64,000 bases of DNA from Planctomycetota bacterium (GTDB lineage Bacteria; Planctomycetota; B15-G4). The notes below the pieces were generated by a model. That model had not been told where the DNA came from. It saw nothing but the letters and a program-made list of their open reading frames with translations, and did not search any database. A program made the position numbers and the translations under genes. The stretch lies in NCBI GenBank assembly GCA_029245865.1, contig JAQWOM010000048.1, forward strand, positions 1 through 64,000, given 5' to 3'. Shown here piece after piece: positions 3,298 to 58,534 of this stretch (position 1 is the first letter of the stretch; each line of letters starts with the position of its first letter).

Positions 3298-4131
3298 TCA
3301 GCCAGGCCCGAACGTGAAGACGATCGCCAGGGCGATGGCAAAGATCACGACCGAGAAGACTCCCATGGCGAAGATCCGCCCGCGGTTCGGTTTGCCGCTG
3401 TCGTCGTGTTTCATGCCAGCCATTGCTTCGCCGCCCTCGCCAGATGCCGCCGGCATTTTCATCGCGCCCATGGAATGAGCGTTGGCCCGCACGGTCATCA
3501 TGCCGTGCTTGAGATGCCGTGTGACGAGCCACCAGTTCATCGGGTAGGCACAGAGGAAACCGACCATGAGAGAGAGCGACATGATGAACCAGAAGGCAGG
3601 GTTGAACGGACTGCTCGCTCCTGCAACGGAAGGTATCCAGAACTTGGAGACCAGGAGCATTCCCGCCATCAGGATGTTCATGGAATAGAACTCCGGGATG
3701 AAGGTCATCTTGAGCGACTTCCCGTAGTCGCCGCCCGCCATGTCGCGCATGGCGTATGCCTGGAAAAATGTCCAGCCGAACCCGAAGCCCAGAACGTATT
3801 CAAGAGCGATGTCGAGTGCCGGCTCGAGTTGCAAAAGACTTCCGATTGCAGCGCCGGCGATGATGCCCAGGCCGTCACCCGCAGCACAGTGCATGGTCGA
3901 GCCAAGCACCTGTCGCCAGGTTGCAGACACGTATTGCTCGTGCGTGCCCGGAAGCGGTTCCCTGCATCCCAGTACGTAGAAGAATGCACCGAAGGGACCG
4001 GTGAAGAGGGTCAGGATGACGAAGCCCCACTTCAGAACGACCGCTTCAGGTGTCGTGCGGATGTCAATGGCCACGAAAAGGACCGACATCCCGGTCAGGA
4101 TGAACCAGAGCAGCATCACGCCATCAAGCAT
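3298..4131 (-). CDS. DUF4396 domain multi-pass membrane protein
   Basis: A 277-residue inner-membrane protein with about seven to eight hydrophobic helices. Features typical of DUF4396 are a conserved STMHCAAGDGLG segment, a PMNWWLVTRHLKHGMM segment, and a His/Met-rich loop before the last helix (HSMGAMKMPAASGEG and MAGMKHDD). The Met/His enrichment suggests metal contact, perhaps copper, but this is inference. Function of the family is not established. It is convergent with the DUF3187 gene (74 bases apart) and divergent from the subtilase gene. Confidence 0.7.
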   Translation of the reverse strand: MLDGVMLLWFILTGMSVLFVAIDIRTTPEAVVLKWGFVILTLFTGPFGAFFYVLGCREPLPGTHEQYVSATWRQVLGSTMHCAAGDGLGIIAGAAIGSLLQLEPALDIALEYVLGFGFGWTFFQAYAMRDMAGGDYGKSLKMTFIPEFYSMNILMAGMLLVSKFWIPSVAGASSPFNPAFWFIMSLSLMVGFLCAYPMNWWLVTRHLKHGMMTVRANAHSMGAMKMPAASGEGGEAMAGMKHDDSGKPNRGRIFAMGVFSVVIFAIALAIVFTFGPG

Positions 4132-4428: not shown

Positions 4429-6795
4429 ATGCTTTCGTCTCTCCTGGCGCTCGGGCTGTTGATGTCTGTTCCGCTTCAAGTGGCTCCCGACAAGCTTGTG
4501 CCCGAGTTGCGCGCCGCTTTTCTCGCCAGCGATGAAGCGCGTGTTTACCGGGTTTATGCCGTGCTCGAGGAACGACTTGCGGGTGTCGACTTTGAGGGCC
4601 AGGTGGAGGGTTTGGCGCGCGGAGAGCGTCAGGCCTTTGTGGCGCAACGACTGCGCTCTTTTGCGGAGCCACGGCAGGCGGGGTTGCTTGCCCAACTGGA
4701 GAGCTTGCGCGAAGCGGGCGCCGTCGAGCGCGTGCGCGCCCTGTGGATCAACAACACCGTGGTTTTTCATGGAACGGCTGCAGCTATTGAGGCTGTCGCA
4801 CAGCGACCCGAGGTGCGCTCCGTGGGCTGGGATCCCGTACGCCCGGCTTCCGAATATCAGGACGATCAGGGCACATCCGATGGCGGCGGATTCACAACCT
4901 ATTACACCCAGGATTTCGAGGGCGGCGTACTGCCTGTCCAGTGGCAGACGTCGGTGACCGGCTGTGGAGATGTTTCGGTCACGAACCTCTACGGCCCTCA
5001 AGAGGGCAGCTTTCACATCGTCATGGCGTCCACCACCGACAGTTGCACGGGGACGGCGACCTTGACCCTCAAGGTGAACCTGACTGCTGCCACGAGCGCG
5101 AGCGTGCGTTACGGCTTCAAGGACATGAACGACGAGTTCAATGCCGGCCTCGATATTCTCGAAGCATCAGACGATGGAGGTGCCACCTGGGCCAAGGTGG
5201 CAGATCTCACCGGGCAAGATGGTGGCTACCTGACCAAGACACACGATCTCGACTCGCTCGGGCTGACTTATGTGAGCGATTTCCTGATCCGGTGGAGCTG
5301 GTCCGACAACTTCACGCCCGAAACGGATGGCTTCGGGATCGATGACGTGGAGATCGCCAGCGGTTTTGAGCCTCCACCGCCACCTGGCCCGCAGCCGAAC
5401 CTCGTGAGCTTGCAGGCGCCGGATCTCTGGGACCTGGGGATTAAAGGGGGCGGGGTCAGGCTGCTGAACATCGACAGCGGTGCGGACTACAACCACCCAG
5501 ATCTCGTGAATCGCATCTGGAGCAATCCGAACGATGCGGCCGATGGCATCGACAACGATGGCAATGGTTTCATTGACGACACCTTGGGCTGGGACTTCGC
5601 TTCGGATGACAACGACCCCAACACCTCGGCAACGCACGGCACGAATACCGCCGGCATCATGGTTGGTGACGGGAGCGCAGGTTTGTTCCTGACAGGGATG
5701 GCCCCGGAGGCCAGCATGGCCGTTGCCTTGGTCAGTGGCGAGACGGATCACTGGGCGGCACAGCAGTGGGGCATCAGCGTGGGCATGGACTGCTCTTCGT
5801 CCAGCCACTCGTACAAGTGGTACTTCAGCCCGAAGCCGGATTACCACATGCACCGTGCCGTGGAAGAGATCGTGCTTGCGGCGGGTATCATTCACGCGAA
5901 CTCGATCGGGAACGACGGGGGGAGTTCGAGCGCGCCGGTTCCCTTCAACATCTCCGCTCCGGGCCTCACGCCTCCACCGTGGAAACATCCGGCCCAGACC
6001 CAGCCTTTGGCTCGGCGCTCCGGGGCCGTGATGGCTTGCGGAGGGATCTTGCTGGACGAGAGTCACTACAGCCCTTCGGGTTCAGGTCCTGTGCCCTGGG
6101 AGAATCTGTTGACCTATGATCCGGCCTATCCACACAGCCAGAACGCCGCGTATTTCGACTATCCCGTGGGTGGTTTTGGTGGGACGGGGCAAGGTCTGAT
6201 CAAGCCCGATGTCTGCACGGTCACCAATGTCGTCACGACGACCAATGGAGGTGGGTACAACAGCAGCTTCGGTGGTACGTCAGCTGCGACGCCGCACCTG
6301 GGTGGCGCTCTGGCACTGCTCTTGTCGGCTCAACCGAACGCCGCGCCGCGACATGTGGCGCAGGCGCTCCAGATCACGGCAAAAGACCTGGGTGTGCCCG
6401 GAAAAGACAACGTGTATGGAGCCGGAAAAGTTCAGGTGCGCGATGCTGCGTTGCGCTTGCTGGGGCTCGTGAAATCGAGCACGCTTGTGCCGTCGCTTGG
6501 CTCGCCTGTGACTTTCACAACCTACGGTCAGGCAGGTGAGTTCTTCGCGACCATGTGGTCATTGAGCTTGGGCTCGACGCCATTCGTCGGCGGTCAGCTT
6601 GATCTGGGGGCGCCGTTCTCTTTCCTTCAGACGGGTGTGCTGCTGGCCGGTGGAAACCCTGTCACGGTGACTGTTCCAATGAACCCCGCTCTTGTCGGTG
6701 TTTCGGTCCACTTTCAGACGGTCCAGGATGACACCGGTGGATTGACTGGTCAGATTCTGTTTTCGACGGTGGAAAGCGTCACCATTCGTAACTGA
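4429..6795 (+). CDS. Exported subtilisin-like serine protease (S8) with inserted beta-sandwich
   Basis: 788 residues from the ATG at 4429, which has TGGAG about eight bases upstream. A short signal peptide (MLSSLLALGLLMSVPLQV) is followed by an I9-like propeptide to about residue 138. A jelly-roll/MAM-like segment follows (about 158-312, with FEGGVLPVQWQTS and FGIDDVEIASGF), then a proline-rich linker. The S8 domain carries Asp349 (NIDSGADYNHPD), His403 (HGTNTAGIM) and Ser618 (GGTSAATPH). About 110 beta-rich residues end the protein. The complete triad predicts an active secreted protease. The beta-sandwich between propeptide and catalytic domain is unusual; accessory domains normally sit at the C-terminus. 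Confidence 0.9.
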   Translation: MLSSLLALGLLMSVPLQVAPDKLVPELRAAFLASDEARVYRVYAVLEERLAGVDFEGQVEGLARGERQAFVAQRLRSFAEPRQAGLLAQLESLREAGAVERVRALWINNTVVFHGTAAAIEAVAQRPEVRSVGWDPVRPASEYQDDQGTSDGGGFTTYYTQDFEGGVLPVQWQTSVTGCGDVSVTNLYGPQEGSFHIVMASTTDSCTGTATLTLKVNLTAATSASVRYGFKDMNDEFNAGLDILEASDDGGATWAKVADLTGQDGGYLTKTHDLDSLGLTYVSDFLIRWSWSDNFTPETDGFGIDDVEIASGFEPPPPPGPQPNLVSLQAPDLWDLGIKGGGVRLLNIDSGADYNHPDLVNRIWSNPNDAADGIDNDGNGFIDDTLGWDFASDDNDPNTSATHGTNTAGIMVGDGSAGLFLTGMAPEASMAVALVSGETDHWAAQQWGISVGMDCSSSSHSYKWYFSPKPDYHMHRAVEEIVLAAGIIHANSIGNDGGSSSAPVPFNISAPGLTPPPWKHPAQTQPLARRSGAVMACGGILLDESHYSPSGSGPVPWENLLTYDPAYPHSQNAAYFDYPVGGFGGTGQGLIKPDVCTVTNVVTTTNGGGYNSSFGGTSAATPHLGGALALLLSAQPNAAPRHVAQALQITAKDLGVPGKDNVYGAGKVQVRDAALRLLGLVKSSTLVPSLGSPVTFTTYGQAGEFFATMWSLSLGSTPFVGGQLDLGAPFSFLQTGVLLAGGNPVTVTVPMNPALVGVSVHFQTVQDDTGGLTGQILFSTVESVTIRN

Positions 6796-17480: not shown

Positions 17481-18722
17481 ATGACATCAAGCGAATCGGG
17501 CTCTGTCCGCACCGGGCGATGGGTCGTCAGCCTCGCACTCATTCTGGGGCTGGTGAACTACCTCGACCGGGTTGTGATTTCGTACGCGATTGGCGGCATC
17601 CAGGCGGACTTTGGAGTCGACAATGCCAGCTTCGGATTGGCCATGAGCTTGTTTGCGGCGGGGACTCTGGCTGTCAATGGAGTGTCCGGGCTTCTTCTCG
17701 ACCGGTTTGGCGCTCGCGTGGTCTGGTCGGTCGGGCTGTTCATCTGGACCGTGGCCATGTTTCTGCTGGGCCTGGTTGAGTACTGGTGGTTGTTTCTCAT
17801 GTTCCGCGTGGTGTTGGGCGTCGGGGAAGGCGTCAACTTCCCCGCGATGAATCGAGTGATCGCAGATTGGATCCCGAGGCAGCAAGCCACTCGCGCCGCC
17901 GCATGGGCATTGATCGGAGTTCCCGGAGCGCTGTTACTCGGCGGCCCTGTTTTGAGCTCTCTGATTGAAAGTCTCGGTTGGCGAGACACCTTCAAAATTC
18001 TGGCCGCCGCCGGGGCCGTCATTCTCATTCTGTGGATGTGGGCTTACCGTGATGCACCGGCGGCTGAGAAGCGGAAGCCCGTGACGCGCCACGAGTACGG
18101 TCAGCTGTTACGAAACCGCACGCTGTTCGCGACGTCCTGGTCGTTCTTTGGCTTTGGTGCGATCCTGTTCTTCGGTGTGACCTGGATCCCGGGTTACTTC
18201 AAGAGCCAATTCCACGAGAACCTGACAACCATTGGATGGTTCACAACGATGCCCTGGGCGTTGTCGCTTGTCGGCATGCTTGCCGTGGGCTCGCTCTCTG
18301 ACCGGCTTTACAAAAACGGCGGAGATGTTCGTCGCGCGCGGATCCATTTGATCTGGATCCTCCAACTGCTTGCTGCACTGAGTTTTGTCCCACTGGCCTA
18401 TGTGACTTCGTCGGGCTGGGCCGTTTTCTGGTTGACGCTCGCCATCGGACTTTCGATGTCCGCCAATGGCCCTTACTACTCGATCTGCACGGACCTTTTC
18501 CAAGATTCTGCGGGTGCCGCGACGGGCATCATGGTCACCTTCTTCTCGGCTTCGGGAATCGCCATTCCCTTTCTTGTCGGCTGGTTGACCGATGTCACGG
18601 CGAGCTTCGATGCCGCTTTCATCATGCTGGCGGTGGTTGTGACCTCTGGCGCGCTCGGACTCCTGTTCTTTGCCCGGCCCGGTCCTCTGGCTCACTCGCG
18701 TCGTGAGGCCGAGGCGGCCTAG
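17481..18722 (+). CDS. MFS transporter, anion:cation symporter (ACS) type
   Basis: 413 residues with twelve predicted helices. The signatures NYLDRVVISYA in helix 1, LLLDRFGARVVW in the 2-3 loop and GEGVNFPAMNRVIADWIP in helix 4 are characteristic of the ACS family, whose members import hexuronates, galactonate, tartrate or similar organic acids with protons. The ATG at 17481 has GAGGAA eight bases upstream. No sugar-acid catabolic genes flank it, so the substrate cannot be narrowed. Palindromic candidate operators lie about 210-290 bases upstream. Confidence 0.88.
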   Translation: MTSSESGSVRTGRWVVSLALILGLVNYLDRVVISYAIGGIQADFGVDNASFGLAMSLFAAGTLAVNGVSGLLLDRFGARVVWSVGLFIWTVAMFLLGLVEYWWLFLMFRVVLGVGEGVNFPAMNRVIADWIPRQQATRAAAWALIGVPGALLLGGPVLSSLIESLGWRDTFKILAAAGAVILILWMWAYRDAPAAEKRKPVTRHEYGQLLRNRTLFATSWSFFGFGAILFFGVTWIPGYFKSQFHENLTTIGWFTTMPWALSLVGMLAVGSLSDRLYKNGGDVRRARIHLIWILQLLAALSFVPLAYVTSSGWAVFWLTLAIGLSMSANGPYYSICTDLFQDSAGAATGIMVTFFSASGIAIPFLVGWLTDVTASFDAAFIMLAVVVTSGALGLLFFARPGPLAHSRREAEAA

Positions 18723-18803
18723 TCCGCGCAGGCTGTCTGAAAACAGGTAGAATCGGCGCGCTTGCCTCTTCGGGCAATCATCTTTCCTCTCAGAGGTTTT
18801 TCC

Positions 18804-19859
18804 ATGAAGACGTTTCTTCTCGCCGGCCTGGCCGGTGTCCTCCTGATGGCCTCCGTTCAGGCCGCCGAAGAGCCCTCTCTGGGCGTCGGCGATCCTGCAC
18901 CTGCGCTCGATGTCGCAGAATGGGTCAAGGGTTCGCAGGTCTCCAACTTCGAAGCAGGCAACGTTTACCTCGTTGAGTTCTGGGCCACCTGGTGAGGCCC
19001 TTGTATTGCGAGCATGCCGCACCTCTCGCAGTTGCAGAGAGACTATAAGGACAAGCATGTAACGATCATCGGCCTGACGAGCGAAGATCGCAGGAATACG
19101 CTCGAAATGGTCAAGGAGATGGTCGAGGACAAGGGCGACGTGATGGACTTCACGGTTGCCTGGGACACCGAGCGCAAGACCAATGCGGCCTACATGGCAG
19201 CGTCGGGACAGCGTGGAATCCCTACCAGCTTTCTTGTCGATCAATCGGGCAACATCGCCTGGATCGGACATCCCATGAATGTCGATATCCCGTTGGCCAT
19301 GGTGGTCGCCGGGACATGGGATTACGAAGACGGCCCCGCGATGATGGAAGCGATTGATGAGAAGCGCACGGCCATCTACAGGGCGGCTTCGACCGACCCG
19401 GCCAAGGCTCTCGCGCTTCTCTCGGCATTCCGGGATGAGTACCCCGTGGCTTCGAAGGGTATGGAAGGTCTCGAGTTCTCGATTCTCTGCCAACTCCCGG
19501 ATCATGTGGCCGAGGCCAAGAAGGTCGGCCGAGTTCTCGTCAATGAGGCGATTGCTGAGAAGAACGCGAGTGCGCTCAATGCCTTTGCCTGGCCGCTCGT
19601 CGACCCGGAAGAGAAGCGGAAGGATCGTTTCCTCGAACTCGCCATGCTTGCTGCCAGCAAGGCGAATGAGTTCTCGGGGAACTCTGACCCGGCCATTCTG
19701 GACACCCTCGCCCGTGTGTACTTCTGGCAAGGAGATATGCAGGAAGCCCTGGAGATTCAGAGAAGGGCCGTGGAGGCTGCACCGGAAGAGATGAAGGCTT
19801 CCTTGCAGAAGGCTGCGGAAGAATACGAAGGATCTGTCGGAAATCAGCGGCGACGCTGA
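18804..19859 (+). CDS. Exported thioredoxin-like protein with in-frame TGA (putative selenocysteine) in the UGPC redox motif
   Basis: Read through a TGA at 18993-18995, this is one 351-residue protein. The ATG at 18804 has AGAGG upstream and begins a signal peptide (MKTFLLAGLAGVLLMASVQA). The TlpA/ResA/AhpC-like domain follows: VGDPAPALD near the N-terminus, then VEFWATW-TGA-GPCIASMPHL, then GIPTSFLVDQSGNIAWIGHP with the cis-Pro. The normal motif is WCGPC; TGA replaces exactly the first, nucleophilic Cys (codon 64), while the resolving Cys stays. Without readthrough the first product would be 63 residues. The C-terminal 130 residues are TPR-like helices. A paralogue at 57566 has the same TGA. 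Sec incorporation is inferred; no sel genes are in the window. Confidence 0.85.
18993..19030 (+). promoter_or_regulatory. Candidate bacterial SECIS element after the in-frame TGA
   Basis: Bacterial SECIS hairpins lie within the coding sequence just after the UGA, usually with a G near the start of the apical loop about 16-37 bases downstream. Two exclusive hairpins fit. TGCGAG (19007-19012) pairs perfectly with CTCGCA (19025-19030). Alternatively TGCG (19007-19010) pairs with CGCA (19018-19021), leaving a 7-base loop AGCATGC that starts 16 bases after the TGA with G second. The second fits the consensus better but is short. Found by eye; no energies were computed. Confidence 0.45.
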
Positions 19860-19877
19860 CTTTCTCTCAGCCACTGG

Positions 19878-19914
19878 GCCCTGCCTCTCTCCCCGTCTGT
19901 TGGAGGGGCAGGGC
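19878..19914 (+). terminator. Probable terminator after the first thioredoxin-like gene
   Basis: GCCCTGCC (19878-19885) and GGCAGGGC (19907-19914) form a perfect 8-base stem, with further CCTC/GAGG pairing possible inside the loop. It begins 18 bases after the stop codon. The downstream T-run is weak (TTAACTCT), so efficiency is uncertain. Confidence 0.55.
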
Positions 19915-19948
19915 TTAACTCTCCCACATCTCACCTCGGACCAAGCCT

Positions 19949-57385: not shown

Positions 57386-57565
57386 CGCCTGAGATGGCTG
57401 CGGCAAGAGCGGCCGAGAGGCAGGAAGGCGCGGATGGCCTGCGAAAGGACTCTTCGCCGCCATTTTTTCCGCGAGGCTCCCCCTCAGTCAGACTCCGGCT
57501 AAACTGAGGCGCTTCCAGAACAGTCGTTCTGTTGCGGATCTCTCTCAACGATGGAGGAGGCGTAC

Positions 57566-58534
57566 ATGTTGTCCATGGTTCTTGCCGGAGGGCTTGCTCT
57601 CGCGGCCGTACTCCCCGGAGACAAGGTGGTCCCTCAGGTGGGAGACCCGGCCCCCTCGTTCGAGGGCAAATGGATGTCCTACGAGGACTCGTCCCTCGCC
57701 GAACTCGAGGGCAAGCTGGTTTTCATCGAGTTCTGGCGAACCTGGTGAGGCCCCTGCAAGTCGCAGGTTCCTCACCTGAATAAGCTCTGGAAAGAGCATC
57801 GGGATGAGGGACTTGTGGTCGTTGGCGTGACCAACGAATCGAAAGGTTTGGTCGAGAGAACAGTTGAGAAGAACCGGATGGAGTTTCCGGTTGCCATGGT
57901 CAAGACGCCCGAAGAAGCGAACTTCGGGATTCGAGGGTTTCCCAGTTCTTACCTGCTGGATGTCGACGGAACGATTCTCTGGAAAGGTCACCCGGCGAGC
58001 TTTGAAAAAGAATATCCGTCCTCGCGCTTGGCCAATGACCTGAAGCGAACATCGACCTTTCCGCCGGTTCCGGAAAAGAGCAAATCTCTGCTCAGTAAAT
58101 ATGCTGATTCCGGAAATTTCTCTGGAGCGTACGTCGCGGCAACTCGAGAGCTAAAGAGGCGCCCTGAAAACGAACCGCTTCAGGAGTTTGCGAATTCGAT
58201 TGAAGAGATGCTCAAGTCACGGCTCGAACTCGCACAGGCCGCAAGAGATCGCGGTGACTACGGGCAATCGATGGAGATGTACTCTTCTCTCGCGAAGAAG
58301 TTTGCGGGTGTTCCAGGCGCAAAAGATGCAGACACCGCTGCAGGAGAGATTAGTAAAGATAAAGAAGCAAAGGATGACCTTGCGGCAGCCAAGAAGTGGC
58401 GGACTGCCATGGTGAGTTGGCGCAAGGGCGATTTCGACAAGGCGCTCAAGAGCGTTAAGTCGATTGCAAAAAAGTATGGAGACACGGCAACTGGCCAGCG
58501 GGCTGAAGAGATGCTGTCGCGTCATGCCGACTGA
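57566..58534 (+). CDS. Exported thioredoxin-like protein with in-frame TGA (putative selenocysteine), paralogue of 18804
   Basis: Read through the TGA at 57746-57748 this gives 322 residues. The ATG at 57566 has GGAGGAGG five bases upstream and a short signal-like N-terminus (MLSMVLAGGLALAAVL). The thioredoxin-fold motif reads FIEFWRTW-TGA-GPCKSQVPHL, with TGA at codon 61 where the first Cys of WCGPC belongs; GFPSSYLLDVDGTILWKGHP carries the cis-Pro. Readthrough is the only way to make a full domain: the frame after the TGA stays open to 58534. The remainder is helical, TPR-like and Lys/Glu-rich. It shares domain order with the 18804 protein, so the pair are paralogues. Confidence 0.85.
57744..57776 (+). 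promoter_or_regulatory. Candidate bacterial SECIS hairpin spanning the in-frame TGA
   Basis: GGTGAGG (57744-57750, containing the TGA) pairs perfectly with CCTCACC (57770-57776). Inside, CCTGC (57753-57757) pairs with GCAGG (57763-57767), leaving loop AAGTC with a G. This nested 7+5-base hairpin is strong, but its apical loop begins only 10 bases after the TGA, nearer than the usual 16-37. A competing stem CAGGT (57764-57768) with ACCTG (57774-57778) has a loop without G. The fit to known SECIS spacing is therefore imperfect. Confidence 0.45.

Follow-up and report, generated by a model that had tools for sequence, protein, structure and literature searches.

The gene at 18804-19859 on the forward strand of the window, the 64,000-nucleotide stretch analysed here (contig C48:1-64000 of a Planctomycetota genome of 3.33 Mb, 90.7% complete, in 57 contigs), in all likelihood encodes a selenoprotein. 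From its sequence and its relatives we infer that UGA 18993-18995 is decoded as selenocysteine (Sec) in the active site of a thioredoxin-fold protein. Positions 18984-19004 (+) read GCC ACC TGG TGA GGC CCT TGT, i.e. A T W (TGA) G P C. An earlier note had put this TGA exactly at the nucleophilic Cys of the motif and had described the frame as open beyond it to a full-length protein. Both statements hold: the translation runs VEFWATW-TGA-GPC, the codon is the sole stop ahead of the terminal TGA, and reading through it gives a single 351-residue protein from ATG 18804 to TGA 19857-19859.

A ribosome-binding-like AGAGG, read directly from the sequence, lies upstream of the gene. The preceding neighbor encodes an MFS transporter and the following one an M43 peptidase, and a substrate is not evident from either. 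The N-terminus of the protein, MKTFLLAGLAGVLLMASVQA, read by eye from the translation, resembles a signal peptide, which suggests export; residues 1-21 form a low-confidence segment in the structure model. A 608-aa open frame antisense to the gene and spanning it (18108-19934, - strand) is without a Pfam match, is likely spurious and was rejected as a gene. Coordinates of the features are collected in Table 1.

Table 1. Features of the predicted selenoprotein gene and of a second such gene in the window
Feature	Position	Strand	Remarks
Predicted selenoprotein gene, TlpA/ResA-type thioredoxin fold with helical TPR-like C-terminal part	18804..19859	+	351 aa, Sec at residue 64
Likely signal peptide MKTFLLAGLAGVLLMASVQAA	18804..18866	+	Read by eye from translation; export inferred
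In-frame TGA at N-terminal redox Cys of WCGPC; predicted Sec codon	18993..18995	+	
Probable bacterial SECIS region	18996..19044	+	Synonymous conservation, folding
TGT codon, resolving Cys (residue 67)	19002..19004	+	
Second predicted selenoprotein, TlpA-like, FWRTW-TGA-GPC, weak TPR match	57542..58534	+	TGA 57746-57748

Homologues were gathered by a protein search of the same genome and 57 related genomes, with loci read in all frames and TGA kept apart. Among the 55 that could be aligned, the active-site column holds TGA in 18, Cys (TGC/TGT) in 35, Ser in one and Asp in one. The TGA falls on the identical column in 18 of 18 TGA-type homologues, none of which has a second TGA within the aligned stretch; three Cys-type frames carry a distant downstream TGA (+128, +288 and +302 residues), near or past their ends. 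Within its own genome the search returned three TGA cases (18993, 57746 and one on contig C47) and two Cys cases (on C38 and C51), and the C38 paralogue, with WCGPC as its motif, is 40% identical along most of the length. The alignment thus confirms Cys at the TGA position in homologues, and the Sec/Cys exchange that had been proposed is borne out by the mixture of the two at one column, together with the full Sec machinery described below. In a tree of 42 homologues, made with the site masked, there are at least five Sec/Cys changes, at least four of them forced by well-supported branches. The window gene groups with two Sec-type homologues (L090 and L134) and one Cys-type homologue (L026); the counts give no direction of change. 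For bacterial selenoproteins, PMC1794560 describes both the origin of Sec from Cys and its loss.

The Sec machinery is encoded on other contigs. The tRNA-Sec gene (C23:73954-74046) scores 75.5 bits, over the Rfam cut-off, and is called by ARAGORN as tRNA-SeC with anticodon TCA; SelA (391 bits) and SelD (339 bits) are also on C23, all three within 6 kb, and SelB (350 bits with neighbors in the frame) is on C26. SelD has its own in-frame TGA, in the catalytic segment NCAG-U-AAKI, and Sec-bearing SelD is a known selenoprotein (PMC13188914). An Rfam scan of the 64-kb window returned nothing, as expected from the location of the machinery. The earlier note had held that absence of all sel genes would count against Sec; selA, selB, selD and tRNA-Sec are all in the genome. 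TGA is at the same time the commonest stop in the window, ending 33 of 50 long ORFs (a set picked greedily that includes a few spurious antisense frames). With the Sec machinery present, the codon therefore carries a double meaning in this genome, which Sec decoding presupposes.

The nearest orthologue (L090; Planctomycetota, isolate CPC51) shares 65% identity over 345 residues and a second (L134) 52% over 337 residues, each with the same TGA. When GTDB species genomes were scanned for F-W-A-T-W-TGA-G-P-C, 59 stretches came up, 47 labelled Planctomycetota in the record title and the others scattered, against a chance expectation, by our own estimate, of ~0.03 in random sequence; this excess, and the fixation of TGA on one column, are not due to chance. 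By score, approximately 10 of the 59 belong to the window protein's own subfamily. SelA was found in 13 of the 14 motif-bearing GTDB genomes searched for it, and tRNA-Sec over the cut-off in eight of nine. Chryseotalea sanaruensis (L131) has the motif with TGA, yet its genome lacks SelA and shows no tRNA-Sec over the cut-off. We take that TGA for a probable nonsense codon or error, and because of this exception the motif by itself is not proof of Sec. SelA passes the cut-off in 44 genomes of the set formed by this genome and its 57 relatives. TGA-type homologues occur in 14 of the relatives; 13 of these have SelA over the cut-off, and G033 (80% complete) has only a sub-cut-off fragment. Since SelA is so common among related genomes, this co-occurrence alone is weak evidence. 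Synteny with the L090 orthologue was sought, and a convincing match was seen at the gene itself only.

Two groups of motif-bearing loci from the GTDB scan are recorded here as well. In a Chitinivibrionales genome (L109), two TGA-type thioredoxin-like genes (3626-3652 and 5921-5947) lie ~2.3 kb apart, and there are two SelA genes and two tRNA-Sec genes over the cut-off. Two entries titled Cyanobacteria bacterium (L093 and L112), whose genomes have SelA and tRNA-Sec, carry FWATW-TGA-GPC in short proteins of thioredoxin-like type.

A decaying gene could acquire such a codon by nonsense mutation, as one base change suffices to turn TGC or TGT into TGA, and C. sanaruensis seems to provide an isolated case. 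There is only a slight chance that the gene at 18804 is a pseudogene of this kind, however, given that its frame is otherwise intact, that the orthologues at 65% and 52% identity keep the TGA, that in two further TlpA-type genes of the genome the TGA replaces the corresponding residue and that the sel machinery is complete. Compared with L090, moreover, dN/dS is ~0.25 before the TGA and ~0.22 after it (0.28/1.27 downstream), so the downstream part is under protein-level constraint. In another reading, translation stops at the TGA and the downstream part is made as a separate protein from ATG 19014 (281 aa). Such an ATG is present, but we rate this slightly lower again, since the division would cut the thioredoxin fold past its second strand with loss of the catalytic centre, and conservation is unbroken across the TGA site.

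An error of sequencing or assembly at 18993 is a smaller worry still, fragmented though the assembly is (57 contigs): other assemblies show this TGA independently, paralogues at other loci of the genome have it too, and its presence in orthologues makes a sequencing error very unlikely. General recoding of TGA as Trp or Gly throughout the genome, with no Sec codon, had already been thought unlikely by the earlier note, and we give it practically no credence. We found no point in its support, the stop-codon counts of the window speak against it, the TGA aligns with Cys and not with Trp or Gly, and the genome has a tRNA-Sec.

Synonymous change is suppressed just past the TGA, which fits a bacterial SECIS element embedded in the coding sequence. 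Against L090, codons +1 to +18 show 3/16 synonymous changes compared with 45% elsewhere (p = 0.03 in a simple test), codons +5 to +16 show zero, and the 14-codon stretches with fewest changes in the whole gene (one change) are those starting at +5 and +6. In the Sec clade around L085 the suppression is stronger, with 1-3 changes in 13-18 codons versus 38-49%, and codons just ahead of the TGA are not spared; in the Sec clade of L046, L047 and L067, suppression after the TGA was looked for and none was seen.

RNA folding of this one gene gave a weak signal (the fold after the 18993 TGA is unexceptional alone, with z -1.43 and 18 of 200 shuffles equally good), and so a group test was used. The hairpins scored were those whose apical loop has a G close to its start, as is seen in bacterial SECIS elements (PMC1088965). 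Hairpins after TGA are stronger than those at the same place after Cys, also when set against synonymous shuffles, with mean z of -1.01 versus -0.54 (p = 0.0065, such p-values being optimistic because the sequences are related). The Cys set itself deviates slightly as well. A fold at approximately +28 to +46 after the TGA, the hairpin CTCTCGC-AGTT-GC-A-GAGAG, is one candidate among competing foldings at this gene, and we do not claim it as the exact SECIS.

The Pfam models Redoxin, AhpC-TSA and Thioredoxin cover residues 28-155, Redoxin being the best match (4.4e-17). The nearest NCBIfam models are ResA, TlpA, DsbE and StoA, every score being far below its curated cut-off (for ResA, NF002854, 65.5 vs 170 bits). 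The nucleophile of the thioredoxin fold sits just ahead of a helix, and in the structure model (mean pLDDT 87.6; input of nine window and relative sequences) residue 64 directly precedes helix 65-80, while residues 176-350 are all helical. A U-x-x-C at the start of helix 1 in a Redoxin/AhpC-TSA/thioredoxin domain agrees with the description of TlpA/ResA-like proteins (cd02966), as judged from Pfam, the structure model, and sequence and fold matches. Among solved structures of thioredoxin type, ResA and DsbE-like proteins match best in both sequence and fold. ResA 4nmu leads the fold matches and also ranks first among the thioredoxin-type sequence matches. Of the thioredoxin plus TPR-like build described earlier, the first part stands on these domain matches. 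The second falls short in that the TPR models stay below their Pfam gathering scores (22.2 vs 27.5 and 21.1 vs 30.1 bits, near residues 298-326), though the structure model is helical there.

In the mechanism that we propose, the genome's own SelA, SelB, SelD and tRNA-Sec would decode the UGA as Sec, aided by a SECIS hairpin that follows closely within the coding region. In the product, the first long helix of the thioredoxin fold would begin with a U-G-P-C active site. The U64 selenolate would attack a substrate disulfide, the resulting mixed selenenylsulfide would be resolved by Cys67, and a membrane electron carrier would re-reduce the protein outside the cytoplasm; one DsbD-type membrane protein (DsbD_TM) is encoded in the genome. 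The helical C-terminal part may bind a partner or a substrate. By analogy with ResA and TlpA, a reductase role toward disulfides of exported proteins, through U64 and C67, and such a partner seem reasonably likely.

In a scan of the window, many TGAs lay close to a Cys in an open frame but lacked a motif; a recognisable one was seen only at 18993 and 57746. The 57746 case, which was absent from the finding of the earlier note, is followed by a very stable fold (z -3.95). Three more came out of another family search: an AhpC-type peroxiredoxin (FTFV-U), a Bcp-type protein (TPG-U-T) and a further TlpA type (FYH-U-GAC). Of the 17 AhpC/TSA-type genes in this genome, six contain a single TGA, each at the redox residue. 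Predicted selenoproteins thus number at least seven including SelD, with at least six besides the gene at 18804, one of them within the window; coming from family searches, the count is a lower bound. Those on other contigs are the AhpC-type peroxiredoxin (L138, C28), the Bcp-type protein (L139, C51), two TlpA-type proteins (L147, C56; L025, C47) and SelD (L018, C23).

A ‘thiol-disulfide isomerase-like’ selenoprotein family with UXXC was reported from Sargasso Sea data in 2005 (PMC1088965), and a 2026 review places it under cd02966 (TlpA-like, UxxC), listing also a UxxC Redoxin family and a UGC-type TlpA family (PMC13188914). The window protein has in common with the 2005 family a thioredoxin-type domain, Sec for the first Cys of the motif and retention of the second; the likeness is by description, at the level of domain and motif. 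It shares with the Redoxin selenoprotein (PF08534, UxxC; PMC13188914), again by description, Redoxin as best Pfam match and the UxxC motif; that selenoprotein may be of the same family, differently named. From ResA, StoA, TlpA and DsbE (CcmG), with which it shares the fold, a presumed exported location and a WCxxC-type active site, it differs by Sec for the first Cys and by an approximately 180-residue helical TPR-like C-terminal part. Sec-containing thioredoxin (PF00085, UxxC), listed as experimentally verified (PMC13188914, reference 84), likewise has Sec at the nucleophile of a thioredoxin-fold motif, but it is a small protein from a different subfamily, distinct from the exported TlpA type with its helical tail. 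The string WUGPC was not found in the literature searched, which held few papers on Planctomycetota selenoproteins; full Sec gene sets plus selenoproteins have been described in Planctomycetes (PMC4807772).

Sec in UxxC TlpA-like proteins has thus been known since 2005, and selenoproteins are many in this genome and phylum. The general view of Sec in UxxC thioredoxin-fold proteins and of Planctomycetes selenoproteins (PMC4807772) is unchanged. A more speculative proposal, which we regard as doubtful, is that Sec is in wide use across the Planctomycetota in TlpA-type exported proteins carrying a TPR-like tail, with four or more switches between Sec and Cys at that residue, and that this tail is the sign of a phylum-specific envelope redox system, substrate-specific and as yet undescribed. 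For annotation, taking the TGA as a stop would begin the gene at 19014 or split it, losing the catalytic half, and the same mis-annotation would affect relatives in many Planctomycetota. Since its genome also encodes a Cys paralogue, and closely related proteins of both the Sec and the Cys type exist, this case would suit a direct comparison of Sec with Cys in a presumably exported oxidoreductase.
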